From: Verrucomicrobiales bacterium
GTDB taxonomy: Bacteria > Verrucomicrobiota > Verrucomicrobiia > Verrucomicrobiales > DEV007
Length of the DNA: 64,000 bases
NCBI GenBank assembly: GCA_002698785.1
Contig: PAAG01000038.1
Span: 1-64,000, forward strand
Direction: 5' to 3'
In this document: in pieces, positions 29,874 to 36,409 of the stretch
Layout of the letters: the number at the start of each line of letters is the position of its first letter
Numbering within the stretch: position 1 is the first letter of the stretch
Notes under the pieces: generated by a model
The model's database searches: none
Told to the model about the DNA's origin: nothing
The model's input: only the letters and a program-made list of their open reading frames with translations
Position numbers and translations under genes: made by a program

Positions 29874-30452
29874 TCAAGAGTTTCGCGTCTGGCTTCTGAC
29901 ATCGGGCCTCTGGTCTCTACCTCTGTTCCGCCCAAGACGTTCGAGCGACGCCAACACCCTCCTCGCTTTCGACCGAAAACCCGCCTTCGTTCCCGTAGGC
30001 AGCTGATGCTCGATCGAGAGACGCAGTTCTTCCGCCAGCGCTGGCTCACGAATACAGAGGCTTTCCAGCACCGACATCGAGTGCACCTTCACTGCGACCG
30101 TCTCATCAGGAGAACCCAGGAGCCGGAACGCAATGTCCGCAGCAAGGCCTGACAGCTCATCGGGCAGCGCCAACTCCGCAGCTACCTTCATCGTGTTGCG
30201 TTTCACACCGTCATGAAGGTCGGGGCGTTGGAGATTGCCGAGAAGTCGATCGAGGTAAGGCTGCACCATATCAGGATGCTCTTCCGCACAGCAGGCAACC
30301 ACCCAAGCCGCCCTGCGAGCTAGGTCCATATCCTCTCCCAAAACGAACGAAAGGAGTTCTTCGAAGCGTTCCCGGGAATCCCCAATCTCCTTCGCGATCA
30401 GAATCGTCTGCGCTTTGGAATGTTTGGATTTGAGGGAGGTCTGGAGGTTCAT
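29874..30452 (-). CDS. Helical-repeat (HEAT-like) protein, fifth gene of metal-GTPase operon
   Basis: A 192-residue soluble, all-helical protein. The helices alternate in a pattern typical of HEAT/ARM repeats: SRERFEELLSFVLGEDMDL, ARRAAWVVACCAEEHPDMV, QPYLDRLLGNLQ, VKRNTMKVAAELALPDE, TVAVKVHSMSVLESLC and EELRLSIEHQLPTGTKAGF. The final 20 residues are strongly basic. Such repeats mediate protein binding; no catalytic motif is visible. It is separated by 59 bp from the second CobW-type gene and may be read from the operon promoter at 33.9 kb. It could scaffold a GTPase or target protein (inference). Confidence 0.65.
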   Translation of the reverse strand: MNLQTSLKSKHSKAQTILIAKEIGDSRERFEELLSFVLGEDMDLARRAAWVVACCAEEHPDMVQPYLDRLLGNLQRPDLHDGVKRNTMKVAAELALPDELSGLAADIAFRLLGSPDETVAVKVHSMSVLESLCIREPALAEELRLSIEHQLPTGTKAGFRSKARRVLASLERLGRNRGRDQRPDVRSQTRNS

Positions 30453-30511: not shown

Positions 30512-31507
30512 CTACGAAGAATGCATAGAATAGAAACCATCTCGTCCTACGTCTTCCCCAAAGAATTCCTCGATTTGTTCCTTAATTACGTCAGGTGCTA
30601 AGCAAGCACCGATGCAGACCAATGATGGCGACACTTTTGTGATATTTGGGACCGGTAGGGGCGGAGGGAGTGGATCTTTGCCTGACCGTTGAAACAGCCA
30701 GCGGGATCCGGGGTGTTCGACAAGTTTTACAAGAGCCTTCGCACGAACTACCCAGTCAGGAAGTGTGGTAAGGAGAGCTTCAACAGAGTGCCTTCTCACA
30801 CGAGGAGGGAGTGGGAATTGAACTCCGGAGAATCGGTGAGAGAGCAGGTGGACCGGATCGTCTTCAGTTCTACCGACTGCGTGCAAAGATTCAAAAACGT
30901 CGGTTGCGATTGTTTTTGAATGCTGGGCGCATACCATCCCTTCTAGCGCCTCGAGCAACTCTTTTGATGAAGTTCTCACTGCATACCTCGCACAAGACCT
31001 GACGCTTCCTGCGACTTCATCGATCCGATCCTGCCCAACATAGTCTGTGTGGGAAAGCACCCAATACCCTGCGGTTTCGAGTTGCCGTATCTCGAGGGGA
31101 TTCCAGTCTCCTCGCTTCACCCAGTGCCGAGCATCGACCAATCCTACTTGGATGCGGGGAAAGAAAGGCAATCGGCTTTCAACTAACGTGAATGCCTCCA
31201 GGAGGGAGAGGGGATCTGCAGTGCCATTGAGTTCGATTAATAGTACGTCGCTTGAACTTTCGCTGGCAGCTGTGCAGAGAGAAACCAACTCGTCGAGGCT
31301 CTCACAGCAGGCACAGCTTGCTGCTATCGGCACGATGCTGGCGGCATCCTCACCGAGCGTAGCCGCATCGAGTTCAGCGTTGGAGAAATCATTGAGAATG
31401 ACATCTGCTGTTAGATTTCGTTTCTTCAGTCCAACGACGAGAGACCTGAGGAGGGTGGTTTTTCCGGAACCAAAGAACCCGGTGAGAAAGAGGAGCGGTT
31501 TGGCCAT
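30512..31507 (-). CDS. COG0523/CobW-type GTPase with altered G4 motif
   Basis: A 331-residue G3E-family protein. Walker A is LTGFFGSGKTTLL (8-20), NDFSNAELDAATLG (39-52) is the switch region, and the metal-binding C-x-C-C motif is present as SCACCES (64-70). The segment LIELNGTADPLSLLE matches the Walker B/ESTG area. The usual guanine-specificity motif NKxD appears as SHTD in YWVLSHTDYVG, so nucleotide preference could be changed. Compared with the first CobW-type protein of the operon the C-terminal domain is shorter. Family members deliver zinc, cobalt or iron to client enzymes; the client here is unknown. Confidence 0.85.
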   Translation of the reverse strand: MAKPLLFLTGFFGSGKTTLLRSLVVGLKKRNLTADVILNDFSNAELDAATLGEDAASIVPIAASCACCESLDELVSLCTAASESSSDVLLIELNGTADPLSLLEAFTLVESRLPFFPRIQVGLVDARHWVKRGDWNPLEIRQLETAGYWVLSHTDYVGQDRIDEVAGSVRSCARYAVRTSSKELLEALEGMVCAQHSKTIATDVFESLHAVGRTEDDPVHLLSHRFSGVQFPLPPRVRRHSVEALLTTLPDWVVRAKALVKLVEHPGSRWLFQRSGKDPLPPPLPVPNITKVSPSLVCIGACLAPDVIKEQIEEFFGEDVGRDGFYSMHSS

Positions 31508-31522
31508 TGATAAATAGTAATC

Positions 31523-31993
31523 TCAGCAAATGCCGAGTCTTCTTTCCAACTCAGTTAGGCAGATCCTCCAGCAGGCCGAGTCCATTTGGGTATGGCTGCT
31601 GCCTTCGGTTCGAGAAAGACCAGCAATGAACTCGCATCCCGCCACTTCGAGTAGTTCATTGAAAAGTGATGTGCGAAGAAACGTGGCAGTTGGGTCGAAG
31701 GCTTTAAGGTAGATCCGATAATCTCCGCCGACCGACTCGGTGTGCAGAGCGAGAAGGACGATTTGAATCGCTTCGGCGTCCAACGGGCAACCGACCCGCT
31801 GAGCACAGGAACAGTAATCGTTCACAATGGATGTGAGCCGGGCAACGACTCGCTCGATATCACCAGCCAGGTTTTGATTGGTCTGGGGCACTGCTGGCTT
31901 TCTTAAAGAAGAGAAGTCGAGCCGAGGAATCTCGAAACCTTGCCGAAGAAAGCGGTGGAAAGCCGGGATGTTCTTGCCGGCATTGTCACTCAT
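31523..31993 (-). CDS. Cysteine-rich protein of unknown function in metal-GTPase operon
   Basis: Not recognised. A 156-residue soluble protein encoded 6 bp after one CobW-type gene and 15 bp before the other. It has seven Cys, of which CSCAQRVGC (about 62-70) is suggestive of metal binding. The segment AIQIVLLALHTESVGGDYRIYLKAFDP (about 75-101), split by conserved-looking His and Glu residues, and CWRICLTELERRL near the C-terminus are other notable parts. No signal peptide or membrane segment is seen. Being locked between two metallochaperone genes suggests that it is a client, adaptor or metal-sensing partner of them (inference). Confidence 0.65.
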   Translation of the reverse strand: MSDNAGKNIPAFHRFLRQGFEIPRLDFSSLRKPAVPQTNQNLAGDIERVVARLTSIVNDYCSCAQRVGCPLDAEAIQIVLLALHTESVGGDYRIYLKAFDPTATFLRTSLFNELLEVAGCEFIAGLSRTEGSSHTQMDSACWRICLTELERRLGIC

Positions 31994-31999
31994 ATTGAA

Positions 32000-33262
32000 T
32001 CAGGCAGTCAGAGTTTCGGTCACAGTTCCTTGAGCAGTATCCATGGCATCGATAGCCATATTCCAATCCGGAAAAGGATCGGATAACTGGTCCTTCCACT
32101 CCTGTTGATCCATGGCGAGTTCTGCATCTGTCAGGAGAGCGCTGTCGAGCATGGCAGTGAGTTTCTCCTGATCCATCCCGGAACCAATGAGGACGAGCTC
32201 TTGGCGGCAGTCGCCATTCGGGCCGGCAGAAGATTTCTCGATCTCAGCAAGCTCAGCGGGGGCGGTCGGCCAGTATTCTTTCGGAACCGCCGCCCAGAAA
32301 TATCCGAGGCATTGATTCTGGCACATTGCCCCGGCCTGCGACCAGTAACCGGCGAGTTGAAGCCGCGTAGCCAGCCAGAAGATGCCCTTGGATCGAATCA
32401 CTCCCGGCCATTCCTTCTGGAACAATGCGTAAAGACGCTCGGGGTGAAAAGGGATGCGTCTCTGATAAACGAAATTGGAAATGCCATACTCTTCCGTTTC
32501 AGGTGTGTATTCGACGAGCGAGTCGAGCCAGCCGGGTGTTTCCTCGGCTTCGGAAAGTTGAAACAGTCCGGTTCCCATCACAGTGTGGAGAGGGACGTTG
32601 GAGTTTCGTGTTTCGTGGACCATGGCCTTCGGATTCAGCGCCCGGATCATGGAGTGTATGCGAGTCCGTTGCTCGTCATTTACGAGATCGATCTTATTGA
32701 TCAGGATCACGTTGGCGAATTCGATCTGGTCGACTAGCAGATTCACGATACTGCGTTCGTCGCCATCTCCCGCAGTTTCGCCCCGATCGCTGAGTTGGTC
32801 GGCGCTTTCGTAATCGCGGAGAAAGTTGAGAGCATCCACCACGGTAACCATCGTGTCGATCTCTGCCACATCCCCAAGTGATCGTCCTTCCTCATCTCGG
32901 AAGGTGAAAGTTTCTGCGACCGGCATGGGTTCGCTAATCCCGGTGGACTCGATTAGCAGGTGGTCAAATCGGCCCTCCCGAGCCAGCTTGCCGACTTCGA
33001 GCAGCAGGTCTTCTCTCAGAGTGCAGCAGATACACCCATTGGACATCTCGACCATTTTTTCCTCTGCATGTGAGAGGGAAGCATCGCCAGAGCGGACAAG
33101 GGAGGCATCGATATTGACTTCGCTCATGTCGTTCACGATAACGGCGACCCTCTTCCCTTCTCGATTGCGAAGGATGTGCTCAAGCAGGGTTGTCTTTCCT
33201 GCTCCAAGGAAGCCGGAGAGAACAGTAACGGGGAGTTTGTCAGGAATGTTGTGGGTATTCAT
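32000..33262 (-). CDS. COG0523/CobW-type metallochaperone GTPase (ZigA-like)
   Basis: A 420-residue G3E-family GTPase with Walker [14 protein letters not shown] (15-27), [13 protein letters not shown] (44-56), metal motif GCICCT with Cys77, Cys79 and Cys80, [15 protein letters not shown], and a normal NKID guanine motif in [11 protein letters not shown]. The C-terminal CobW_C domain (about 270-415) contains [11 protein letters not shown] and KGIFWLATR. Length and organisation match the long ZigA-type subgroup that supplies zinc to enzymes during zinc starvation. The start codon overlaps the upstream stop as TAATG, indicating translational coupling. Tandem Fur-like operators precede the operon. 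Confidence 0.92.
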
Positions 33263-33870
33263 TACGTTGTTGGAAATGAGGTTCTCTGCCACTCACGAAT
33301 CCGTCGGAGCGACTCGGGTGAAGTCTGGTATTCTCTTAGCCACTTCAGCGATTCATCGCGAGGAAGGATCGCGCGCGACGTGGGGAGTTTCTTGAAAGCC
33401 CGGTAGTTCGCCTCTCTGTGACCGGAGCCGACAGTCGATTCGATCCATTCTTCGTAGGCGAGCCACCAGTTCAGGAATCGGCACGAAACGTGGTAAAGTG
33501 AGAAAACAGGCCCCGAGGAGAGAAGGTCTTCGGCATAGAATCCCGGGATAGGCGGTTCGCTTCCCCTGTATAAAAAGCAACGCCGGCGATTTCGAATAAA
33601 CAGGAAGCCCGGGAGAAAATTGGAAGAGTAGGACCCAACGCAGGCACCATGGAGTTCGACCGCGCCTTCGGATGATTGCGTTCGGTAGCAACTGGTCCCG
33701 TTGAGTCCCTCTGAGGATCTGCGATCAAATCCATAGAGGGTCAGGAGATTTCCTTCGGGGTGGACCACGTCTCTTCCCCAGAAATACATCTGCTGGGTGA
33801 GGAGCGAGGTGAAATCCCGGATCAGCCCTCTAAGCCTGCTGTTTTGAAGTTGGTCAATTCCACTCGGCAT
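33262..33870 (-). CDS. Unrecognised first gene of the putative zinc-responsive operon
   Basis: A 202-residue soluble protein that I cannot place in a family. It is rich in Trp, Tyr, Phe and Arg. Notable segments are [20 protein letters not shown] (28-47), GTSCYRTQ (about 58-65), [10 protein letters not shown] (73-82), [16 protein letters not shown] (about 88-103) and [13 protein letters not shown] (about 131-143). Several Cys and His (His37, His75, Cys61, Cys78, Cys99) could bind a metal, but this is only a possibility. The ATG at 33870 directly touches the operator palindrome and has no Shine-Dalgarno, suggesting a leaderless mRNA. Its stop overlaps the next start (TAATG). Confidence 0.7.
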
Positions 33871-33891
33871 TAATGCAATCTATTTGCATTA
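33871..33891. promoter_or_regulatory. Fur/Zur-like operator box 1
   Basis: TAATGCAA-TCTAT-TTGCATTA: a perfect 8-bp inverted repeat around 5 bp, touching the start codon of the first operon gene and covering the -10 region. Confidence 0.75.
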
Positions 33892-33904
33892 ATTGCTAAT
33901 GCAA
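33877..33904 (-). promoter_or_regulatory. Promoter of the five-gene metal-GTPase operon
   Basis: On the minus strand TTGCAT (33904-33899), a 16-bp spacer and TAGATT (33882-33877) lie with the -10 end six bases before the ATG. The start point would then be at or beside the first codon, giving a leaderless mRNA. Both hexamers lie inside the palindromic boxes, so a bound repressor would block them. Confidence 0.55.
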
Positions 33905-33917
33905 GGGAATTGCAATA
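33897..33917. promoter_or_regulatory. Fur/Zur-like operator box 2
   Basis: TAATGCAA-GGGAA-TTGCAATA: the same architecture as box 1, with two mismatches in the right arm. The 26-bp centre-to-centre spacing places the two boxes slightly more than two helical turns apart. It overlaps the -35 hexamer. Confidence 0.7.
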
Positions 33918-34117
33918 AAGCTAGATGTGAGGCTCTCTATTTCGGCTTGTAATCGAATTAGAAGTCGAAAATACGGACGGATCTACCAATGTGAATAACC
34001 CGTGGAACGCGCGTGGAATGGCGATTTGGGGCAAAAAAGACGTTTTTTTCGGAAAAAGTGCATTTTTTTCTCATAAAAGTTTTCCTGAGCCGTCTTTCAA
34101 GTAGCAGAGGAGGTGAG

Positions 34118-34956: not shown

Positions 34957-35165
34957 AAAATCCTATCATTACCTATCATTTTCCCGGAACCGCTCAATCC
35001 CGGGAAACCTGAAACCACCATCATTTCCCATCATTTCGGAAAGTGCCCGGTTACGCTGCCAGGACCTGTCCTGCGTGGTGGTTCAATTTTGGGCGATGAA
35101 AGTGGAACGTAAATCCGCTATCATTCTCCATCATTTTCCACGGAACTGCTCACCTCCTGAGAACC
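34957..35165. repeat. Three ATCATT-N4-ATCATT hairpin repeats
   Basis: The cores are at 34965-34980, 35020-35035 and 35120-35135, with spacers ACCT, TCCC and CTCC. Cores 1 and 3 sit inside short inverted repeats (GGAAAAT/ATTTTCC and GTGGAA/TTCCAC). The 50 bases following core 1 and core 3 remain similar (CGGAAC, GCTCA, GAAACCTGAA-type matches). They lie in the 3' region between convergent genes, where REP-like elements are usually found. The first half of the 463-bp gap (34714-34950) contains no supported feature besides a CCCGGG-TT-CCCGGG palindrome at about 34937-34950. Confidence 0.7.
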
Positions 35166-35176
35166 TGAATCTCTTC

Positions 35177-36409
35177 TTATCCCAGGTTTTCTTCGATGCG
35201 GCGGCAGACTTCTTCAACGTTCTCGCGGCTGTTGAAAGCCGAGATGCGGAAGTAGCCCTCGCCAGCAGCGCCGAATCCGGAACCGGGGGTGATCACCACA
35301 TTGGCCTGCTCAAGCATACGGTCGAACATATCCCACGAAGTGATTCCTTCAGGGCAACCAACCCAGACGTAAGGTGCGTTGACTCCACCGAAGACGGGAA
35401 GACCGATTTTCTGGCAGGCTTCGCGCAGAAGAGTGGCGTTGCCCATGTATCCCTCGATGAGGGCTGCGACCTGCGCTTTTCCTTCTTCCGAGAAAACAGC
35501 AGCTGCTCCGCGCTGAACGGGATAGCTGGCTCCATTGAATTTGGTGCTGTGACGGCGGGACCACAGTCCATGCAGCGGATGAGTGGAGCCGTCCTCTGCA
35601 TAGCCAACGAGATCCTTGGGAATCACGGTGTAGGCGCAGCGAGTTCCAGTAAAACCGCCGTTTTTCGAGAAGCTCTGGAATTCGATGGCACACTCGCGAG
35701 CACCGTCGATTTCGAAGATGGAACGAGGCACATCGTCTTCCTGGATGAAGGCCGAGTAGGCTGCATCGTAAAGAATGATGGAATTGTTCTCCTTGGCGTA
35801 GTTCACCCAGGCCGTCAGCTGCTCGCGAGTCGCGGTGGCACCGGTTGGGTTATTGGGATAGCAGAGGTAGATGATGTCGACTTTCTCCTCAGGGATCGCG
35901 GGGACAAAGTCATTCTCCGCCGTGCAGGGGAGGTAGACGAGGCCTTCGTAGGCTCCGTTTTCGTCGGCTTCACCCGTGTTACCGATCATGACGTTGGTAT
36001 CAACGTAGACGGGATATACTGGGTCGGTGATGGCGATGGTGTTTCCAGGATCGAAGATGTCGAGGATGTTACCCGAGTCGCACTTGGAGCCATCGGAAAT
36101 AAAGATCTCGTCGGCGGAGATCGGAAGGTCGGCGTAGGTATTGTCTGCGATCGCATCGCGAAGAAAGTCATACCCCTGCTCAGGACCGTAGCCACGGAAA
36201 GTCTTGGAATCGCCCTGCTCGTCGACGGCGTCGTGCATGGCCTTGCGGCAAGCTTCGGGGAGTGGCTCGGTGACGTCTCCGATCCCGCAGCGAATAAGTC
36301 GGGCTGCGGCTTCGGGATTTGCTTCGGTAAATGCTTTTACTCGACGTCCGATTTCAGGGAAGAGGTAGCCAGCTTTGAGCTTAAGAAAGTTGTCGTTGAT
36401 GCGTGCCAT
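35177..36409 (-). CDS. dapL: LL-diaminopimelate aminotransferase DapL
   Basis: Converts tetrahydrodipicolinate directly to LL-diaminopimelate, the short lysine/peptidoglycan branch used by plants, Chlamydiota and related bacteria. The 410-residue product is normal in length. It begins [20 protein letters not shown], followed by [15 protein letters not shown] (substrate loop), [42 protein letters not shown], and the Schiff-base Lys in [12 protein letters not shown]-terminal [17 protein letters not shown] binds the substrate carboxylate. The specific loop and sequence order separate it from general aspartate aminotransferases. It is monocistronic as seen here. Confidence 0.97.

Follow-up and report, generated by a model that had tools for sequence, protein, structure and literature searches.

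Tandem predicted Zur-type operators upstream of a zigA operon and a candidate zinc-starvation regulon in the Verrucomicrobiales

Which protein reads a closely spaced pair of inverted repeats that lies directly in front of genes for COG0523 GTPases is the question raised by a contig of a Verrucomicrobiales bacterium (PAAG01000038.1), of which we analyzed the first 64,000 nucleotides (hereinafter, the window). The proximal repeat (predicted Zur-type operator 1; 33871..33891) reads TAATGCAATCTATTTGCATTA on the plus strand and is a perfect inverted repeat of the form TAATGCAA-N5-TTGCATTA, with no mismatch to the inverted-repeat consensus; the distal repeat (predicted Zur-type operator 2; 33897..33917) reads TAATGCAAGGGAATTGCAATA on the plus strand and, as TAATGCAA-N5-TTGCAATA, has a single mismatch to that consensus. 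Neither is assigned a strand. Both are intergenic, roughly symmetric, and of dimer-site size, with the arm symmetry that is expected for dimer binding, and their centers (33881 and 33907) are 26 bp apart. With up to three mismatches allowed, these are the 2 matches in the 64-kb window, against 0.14 expected, and 2 matches were reached in 1 of 100 shuffles. The sequences, coordinates, and 26-bp spacing given in a preliminary description of the locus proved exact, but its additional statement that the sites overlap both promoter hexamers was not confirmed. A scan of 33700-34100 for sigma-70-like consensus hexamers retrieved a single pair (33995-33968; 9/12), which lies upstream of the operators, and the best pair within the operators, TTGCAA at 33915-33910 with ATTAAT at 33893-33888, reaches 8/12, under the scanner cut-off of 9.

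The genes behind the operators are on the minus strand. The first gene of the operon, whose ATG abuts operator 1, codes for a 202-aa protein (33262..33870) for which searches of Pfam and NCBIfam retrieved no match. This protein is 52 to 55% identical to five orthologs and 27% identical to the sixth sequence compared (locus L092), and in several relatives, e.g., at loci L082 and L090, members of its family are encoded divergently from ZigA across common operators. The second gene is zigA (32000..33292), which codes for a COG0523 GTPase with PF02492 and PF07683 domains and is recognized as the zinc metallochaperone ZigA by the model NF038288 (614 bits against a cut-off of 600). Translation likely begins at the ATG at 33262, within a TAATG sequence that also contains the stop codon (TAA) of the 202-aa gene. 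The closest relatives of this ZigA in named genomes come from verrucomicrobial MAGs, the best being 85% identical (Akkermansiaceae bacterium UBA2381). The third and fourth genes of the presumed operon encode a 156-aa protein without a family match (31523..31993) and a second COG0523-type GTPase (30512..31507; PF02492, 7.1e-27); in one relative (G007, locus L170), a separate site is found 96 bp before a CobW-family homolog of the latter. Judged purely by spacing, a gene coding for a 192-aa protein without a Pfam match (29874..30452), which follows after a gap of approximately 60 bp, is possibly the last member of the operon.

In the window and at loci L082, L084, and L090, the ATG of the 202-aa family, taken as the start of the longest frame, is immediately adjacent to the operator and leaves no separate ribosome-binding site, and the transcripts of these four orthologs are possibly leaderless, to go by the sequence. 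An abutting ATG is also found at other sites (13 listed, on either side, among 69). The start of the 202-aa gene lies 15 bp from the operator at L080 and 116 bp from it at L083, and some of the relatives may use an internal start.

We scanned the entire assembly (7,015,219 bases, 95.9% complete) for the motif. With up to three mismatches, there are 20 sites against 8 for a control pattern, i.e., matches of this quality do arise by chance in the genome, and with up to two mismatches, 4 remain, compared with 1 match of the reversed pattern that served as the control. Those four are the two in the window, one before the genes for a porin-like protein and a ZnuA-family protein on contig C10, and one before a second ZnuA gene on contig C27. 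A position weight matrix (PWM) constructed from 69 nonredundant sites from this genome and its relatives, including the four best sites of this genome, yielded a sharp motif, part of this sharpness being attributable to the preselection of the sites at up to two mismatches and the symmetrization of the matrix with reverse complements. The top five scores among the 20 genome sites are the window sites (30.9 for operator 1, which is itself included in the matrix, and 25.5 for operator 2), a pair on C10 (27.7 and 24.5), and the C27 site (24.9); the next score, 19.9, belongs to a site near an NMT1-like binding protein, which is not an obvious zinc gene. Similarly, the pattern TAWYGCAA-N5-TTGCRWTA retrieves 14 genome sites at up to two mismatches (6 for the control) and, at zero or one mismatch, only the same five, namely, two in the window, two on C10, and one on C27.

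The C10 pair, beside which a third, weaker site is found (score 17.8), precedes a gene whose 446-aa product is rich in His and begins with a signal-like sequence; this gene is in turn followed by the gene for the ZnuA-family binding protein (PF01297, 9e-53). We term the 446-aa protein porin-like from its look; no Pfam family exceeded the cut-off. The best NCBIfam matches of the C10 ZnuA are zinc types, all of them under the cut-off (AztC, 109 bits; ZnuA, 106 bits), with the manganese types at no more than 69 bits. The gene for the porin-like protein has a motif-bearing promoter region in common with a divergent gene for a 99-aa HMA protein (L020:6992-8739; PF00403, 9.3e-9), which matches the MerP model at 31 bits, below the cut-off of that model. 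On C27, the site is 7 bp upstream of the ATG of a gene for a second ZnuA-like lipoprotein, the N-terminal part of which (PF01297, 4.2e-18, positions 1-98) continues through a His-rich repeat until the contig breaks off. One end of contig C51 carries the C-terminal part of a ZnuA (PF01297, 1.3e-25, positions 123-242), with genes for an ABC ATPase and an ABC-3 permease behind it, and the His-rich repeat unit of the C27 end is also present there, read in another frame. The two ends, which are not joined in the assembly, probably form one znuACB operon.

The preliminary description had proposed that a genome-wide scan would favor Zur if it found the motif before znuABC, zinc-free ribosomal protein paralogs, or other COG0523 genes. 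The matches before the porin-like/ZnuA gene pair and before the N-terminal part of the second ZnuA at the contig end agree with that expectation. The ribosomal part of the proposal is hardly applicable here because only one L31 gene, with no paralog, was found in the genome and because, as far as the table in PMC3087516 goes, Verrucomicrobiae are entered with cysteine-free forms alone for eight ribosomal proteins.

Comparison with relatives revealed that the motif is conserved across the order. At up to two mismatches, 39 of 56 genomes, including this one, have sites (111 in total against 11 for the control pattern). The exact TAWYGCAA-N5-TTGCRWTA pattern occurs 63 times in 40 of the 141 genomes of the order (4 times in the present genome), against 0 for the control, and 101 of the 141 have no copy of this strict pattern. 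Upstream of verrucomicrobial ZigA genes, a site is present in 14, 16, and 19 of 20 loci at up to two, three, and four mismatches, respectively (0%, 0.1%, and 1.2% in Markov-resampled sequence), a count that excludes two loci for which there was no upstream sequence (L093 and L094). The corresponding figures for other ZigA loci are 0, 3, and 10 of 58 (0.03%, 0.17%, and 2.4% in resampled sequence). Six of the 20 verrucomicrobial loci thus have no site at up to two mismatches, and one of them, L116, has none even at up to four. L116 is titled Planctomycetota and was counted in the verrucomicrobial set rather than among the 17 planctomycete loci, which were chosen by record title. The ZigA encoded there is 78% identical to that of the window, within the verrucomicrobial range, and a binning or naming error is possible in this case.

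When the PWM was run over 621 kb of sequence from the fetched loci, which include repeats and were partly chosen for carrying the motif, it gave 135 hits, not freed of repeats, against 2 in Markov-resampled sequence. The notion that the window sites are chance palindromes in an AT-rich intergenic stretch could appeal to the three-mismatch matches that the control pattern also produces, but it is refuted by the 63-to-0 and 135-to-2 contrasts and by the counts upstream of ZigA, and we give it practically no credence.

The genes behind the sites code for ZigA, the 202-aa family, a Pyr_redox_3 oxidoreductase, a HisI paralog, MerC, the MerP-like HMA protein, the porin-like protein, ZnuA, an ABC ATPase, the second COG0523 GTPase, several unnamed proteins, and, in one genome, a Fur-family protein. 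Of 49 loci around sites, which do not correspond to 49 distinct genomes, 43 carry at least one gene from the set of families considered, a set drawn up in part from those very loci, and by our own count 24 hold ZigA, ZnuA, the second GTPase, or HisI. The porin-like and HMA gene pair with a common promoter region recurs in many relatives. The genome with the most sites among the 56 (12 sites; G024) carries a cluster on contig C269 (L155:3945-10541) that includes HMA, Fur-family, porin-like, MerC, and ZigA genes, with at least one motif copy in each promoter region. Its porin-like protein is 45% identical to that of C10 in the present genome, and two sites are found in the promoter region common to its Fur-family and porin-like genes, one of them overlapping the start of the longest reading frame of the Fur-family gene. 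We detected no MerC in the present genome at an E value of 0.001, so the assignment of MerC to the regulon draws on the relatives.

The recurrence of the motif before zinc-uptake genes, both here and in relatives, makes it very probable that these are sites for a zinc repressor, and we regard the window pair, with a high degree of confidence for a reading from sequence, as a tandem operator for Zur, a repressor of the Fur family, in its zinc-loaded form. The earlier assignment to the Fur superfamily, and to Zur in particular, is thereby strengthened: the best sites lie at ZnuA and ZigA loci, and in relatives the motif is conserved before zinc genes, namely, those for ZnuA, ZigA, the second COG0523 GTPase, and the HisI paralog. 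The best explanation of these observations would be that the operators belong to a verrucomicrobial zinc-starvation regulon with a box that departs from that of the Escherichia coli Zur but retains AATG...CATT in register. We infer a Fur-family protein as the binder and, for this protein, both a repressor role and a response to zinc. When zinc is sufficient, one Zur dimer would occupy each 21-bp inverted repeat, and the bound protein would block the minus-strand operon coding for the 202-aa protein, ZigA, the 156-aa protein, and the second GTPase. Upon zinc starvation, Zur would lose its zinc and leave the operators, and the operon would then be expressed together with the porin-like/ZnuA genes of C10 and the ZnuA gene of C27 (probably znuACB). 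Such a regulon offers a zinc box and a set of predicted zinc-starvation genes that can be tested, none having been found for the phylum in the literature searched, and it picks out several little-known families, namely, the 202-aa family and those of the HMA, porin-like, and MerC genes, as likely to take part in zinc starvation.

Among 41 pairs of neighboring sites in the fetched loci, a spacing of 26 bp is the commonest (11 pairs), followed by 37 bp (7 pairs), and the window pair, being 26 bp apart, therefore falls in the commonest class. In our own comparison, the 26-bp pairs are mostly at the promoters of ZigA, the 202-aa family, the oxidoreductase, or MerC, and the 37-bp pairs are mostly at HMA/porin-like promoters. 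Both spacings are near half turns, and all 41 pairs, which include nonindependent orthologous promoters, give an R of 0.56 at 10.5 bp. An opposite-face arrangement of the paired sites is suggestive but not independent of descent; helical phasing is not claimed, as the 15 distinct spacings give a P of 0.11.

The E. coli box, GAAATGTTATA-N-TATAACATTTC as described in PMC4219657, is the one published Zur box that we compared by hand. It shares with the window box the AATG...CATT elements, with AATG at -9 to -6 from the center, but its inner arm is TTATA-N-TATAA, as opposed to CAA-N5-TTG here. Further, according to the same source, the E. coli Zur dimers bind two overlapping sites in one element, in contrast to the separate 21-bp units of the present motif, which are mostly 26 or 37 bp apart. 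Promoters with two or more Zur boxes have been described, including those of Streptomyces coelicolor znuA and Bacillus subtilis yciC (PMC6103462). More broadly, inverted repeats before znu-type and COG0523 genes are a feature of the Zur regulons of E. coli, Bacillus, actinobacteria, cyanobacteria, and alpha-, beta-, and gammaproteobacteria, from which the present case differs in that the host belongs to the Verrucomicrobiota.

Zur sites before COG0523 genes are described in PMC2770081, and the location of ZigA (NF038288) downstream of a repressor box is like that of the Zur-linked COG0523 subfamily treated there; the HisI paralog, which is among the targets here, also figures in that source's list of paralogs for which induction is predicted when zinc is depleted. 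Its predicted sites are from Bacilli, proteobacteria, and cyanobacteria, going by the file description, and the string "Verrucomicrobi" occurs 0 times in its main text. PMC3087516 gives actinobacterial, clostridial, and proteobacterial genomes, and not Verrucomicrobia, as those searched for Zur sites. We found no description of a Zur regulon of this kind in Verrucomicrobiota or Planctomycetota in the literature searched.

The Streptomyces Nur box, tTGCaa-N5-ttGCAA (PMC3919588), has the same TGCAA-N5-TTGCA core as the window sites in the same register. A Fur-family sensor of another metal, e.g., the nickel-sensing Nur, might accordingly be thought to bind them, especially as a box alone cannot name the metal. 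Nur targets in Streptomyces, as named in titles and text of the literature searched, are nickel transport and superoxide dismutase genes, and one of seven exact core sites in the present genome (C22:241220) does adjoin a gene for a Cu/Zn superoxide dismutase (PF00080, 6.9e-40). However, that core lies inside the neighboring gene for a 474-aa protein, downstream of the dismutase coding sequence, and hence not in the dismutase promoter; for the remaining exact cores outside the operators, the neighboring genes were inspected visually. The window-type sites also differ from the Nur box in their extended outer arms, TAA/TTA, and the high-scoring ones in this genome are before zinc-chaperone and zinc-uptake genes, i.e., those for ZigA and ZnuA. 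Judged from the genes beside these sites, a sensor of another metal seems highly improbable.

Beyond the verrucomicrobial set, the core is perfect in 9 of the 58 other ZigA upstream regions: seven from planctomycetes (L126, L128, L129, L141, L145, L147, and L154), plus L099 and L104. In the 17 planctomycete loci, it is perfect in 7 and within one mismatch in 11, against 0.1% and 2.1%, respectively, of 1,020 resampled sequences. This occurrence of the core upstream of planctomycete ZigA genes indicates that this form of box extends beyond the order and places the core of the Streptomyces nickel box before zinc genes in both Verrucomicrobiota and Planctomycetota, which opens the split between DNA specificity and metal specificity among Fur-family proteins to direct test. 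A broader proposal, which we advance tentatively and would not yet favor over its negation, is that in Verrucomicrobiales a single Zur-type box governs not only ZnuABC and ZigA but also an undescribed Mer-like route of zinc import and that this zinc box is shared with planctomycetes and built on the core of the actinobacterial Nur box. In such a route, zinc would be passed inward by the His-rich outer-membrane porin and the secreted MerP-like HMA protein, joined in some relatives by the MerC-family membrane protein. If this is true, the same TGCAA-N5-TTGCA core serves zinc and nickel in two bacterial groups.

With Zur as the preferred reader of the window operators, the next issue is which protein of this genome fills the role. 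The genome codes for four Fur-family proteins, on contigs C10, C52, C54, and C24; the C10 gene adjoins a gene for a KatG-like peroxidase (PF00141), and the C54 gene adjoins SUF genes (SufBD core). We collected 57 Fur-family proteins from 20 genomes and sorted them by best match, the type counts over the 20 genomes being 4 for C10 (one of them divergent), 15 for C52, 18 for C24, and 20 for C54. The C24 type is present in all 16 genomes outside genus g4 and in none of the 4 within it, and the strict motif is absent from all 23 genomes of g4, as it is from 101 of the 141 genomes overall (a site with two mismatches, at L046, is present in one of six g4 genomes). In the four g4 genomes, which are smaller and belong to family f2 (G042, G048, G051, and G054), the only Fur-family gene found is of the C54 type, and its product, which is SUF linked in the present genome, has lost its CxxC pairs there.

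These distributions bear on the possibility that, instead of a dedicated Zur, an iron-sensing Fur-like C52 paralog or the peroxidase-linked PerR-like C10 paralog binds the sites. The absence of the C24 type from the four g4 genomes does not separate it from the C52 type, which is missing from them as well, and the sequence ranking of the C24 protein itself favors Fur. On the other hand, the site-richest genome, G024, shows no C52-type protein in a 94% complete assembly but encodes a protein of the C24 type as well as the Fur-like one of the zinc cluster, the latter being closest to the C24 type. The C10 type is confined to 4 of the 20 genomes, one by the divergent assignment, and the C54 type occurs in all 20, including the g4 genomes that lack the strict motif. 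Binding by one of these paralogs thus appears unlikely, if less so than binding by a sensor of another metal, and we suggest that the C24 paralog is likely to be the Zur of this genome.

The C24 protein (L024:5585-6136) contains a PF01475 domain, Fur-family chains top the fold list of its structural model (pLDDT, 79.8), and no NCBIfam model reaches its cut-off. Across the 18 sequences of the C24 group, the CxxC...CxxC structural zinc site (C137, C140, C178, and C181) is invariant, as are H131, C150, E156, and H170. The regulatory site of E. coli Zur comprises His77, Cys88, His96, and Glu111, as stated in PMC4219657; in an alignment by eye, C150 is not at the position of Cys88, and part of the C24 group has a Cys near there. 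The best PDB match is Campylobacter Fur (1.2e-11, or 1.2e-23 with a profile of the 18 sequences). In the single-sequence ranking, 7ne9, which we took as a cyanobacterial zinc sensor from its title, is third (1.1e-10) and Mycobacterium tuberculosis FurB is eighth (3.2e-9; 7.6e-19 against the profile), and in the fold comparison Zur chains rank under Fur and PerR chains, neither ranking singling the protein out as a Zur.

In a tree, the C24 group joins planctomycete proteins encoded near ZigA, with 56% support. A Fur-family gene is close to ZigA in 4 of the 17 planctomycete loci (L108, L128, L129, and L150), three of which have the core at up to one mismatch, with none within three mismatches at L150. 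In all, such a gene is near ZigA in 18 of the 58 nonverrucomicrobial loci, 14 of them not planctomycete, and in 0 of the 20 named verrucomicrobial ones within the stretch fetched. The last count, together with the fact that a palindrome does not identify its reader, leaves some room for a regulator outside the Fur superfamily, e.g., of the MarR, TetR, or ArsR type. Against this stand the Fur-family genes in the motif-bearing zinc cluster of G024 and near some of the planctomycete ZigA genes, as well as a half-site spacing that is in register with both Zur and Nur boxes, and we regard such a regulator as a very poor candidate.

Separately from the operators, several short repeats of the form CTATCATT...CCATCATTT were seen by eye at 34960-35140 of the window, before the end of a minus-strand gene at 35177.
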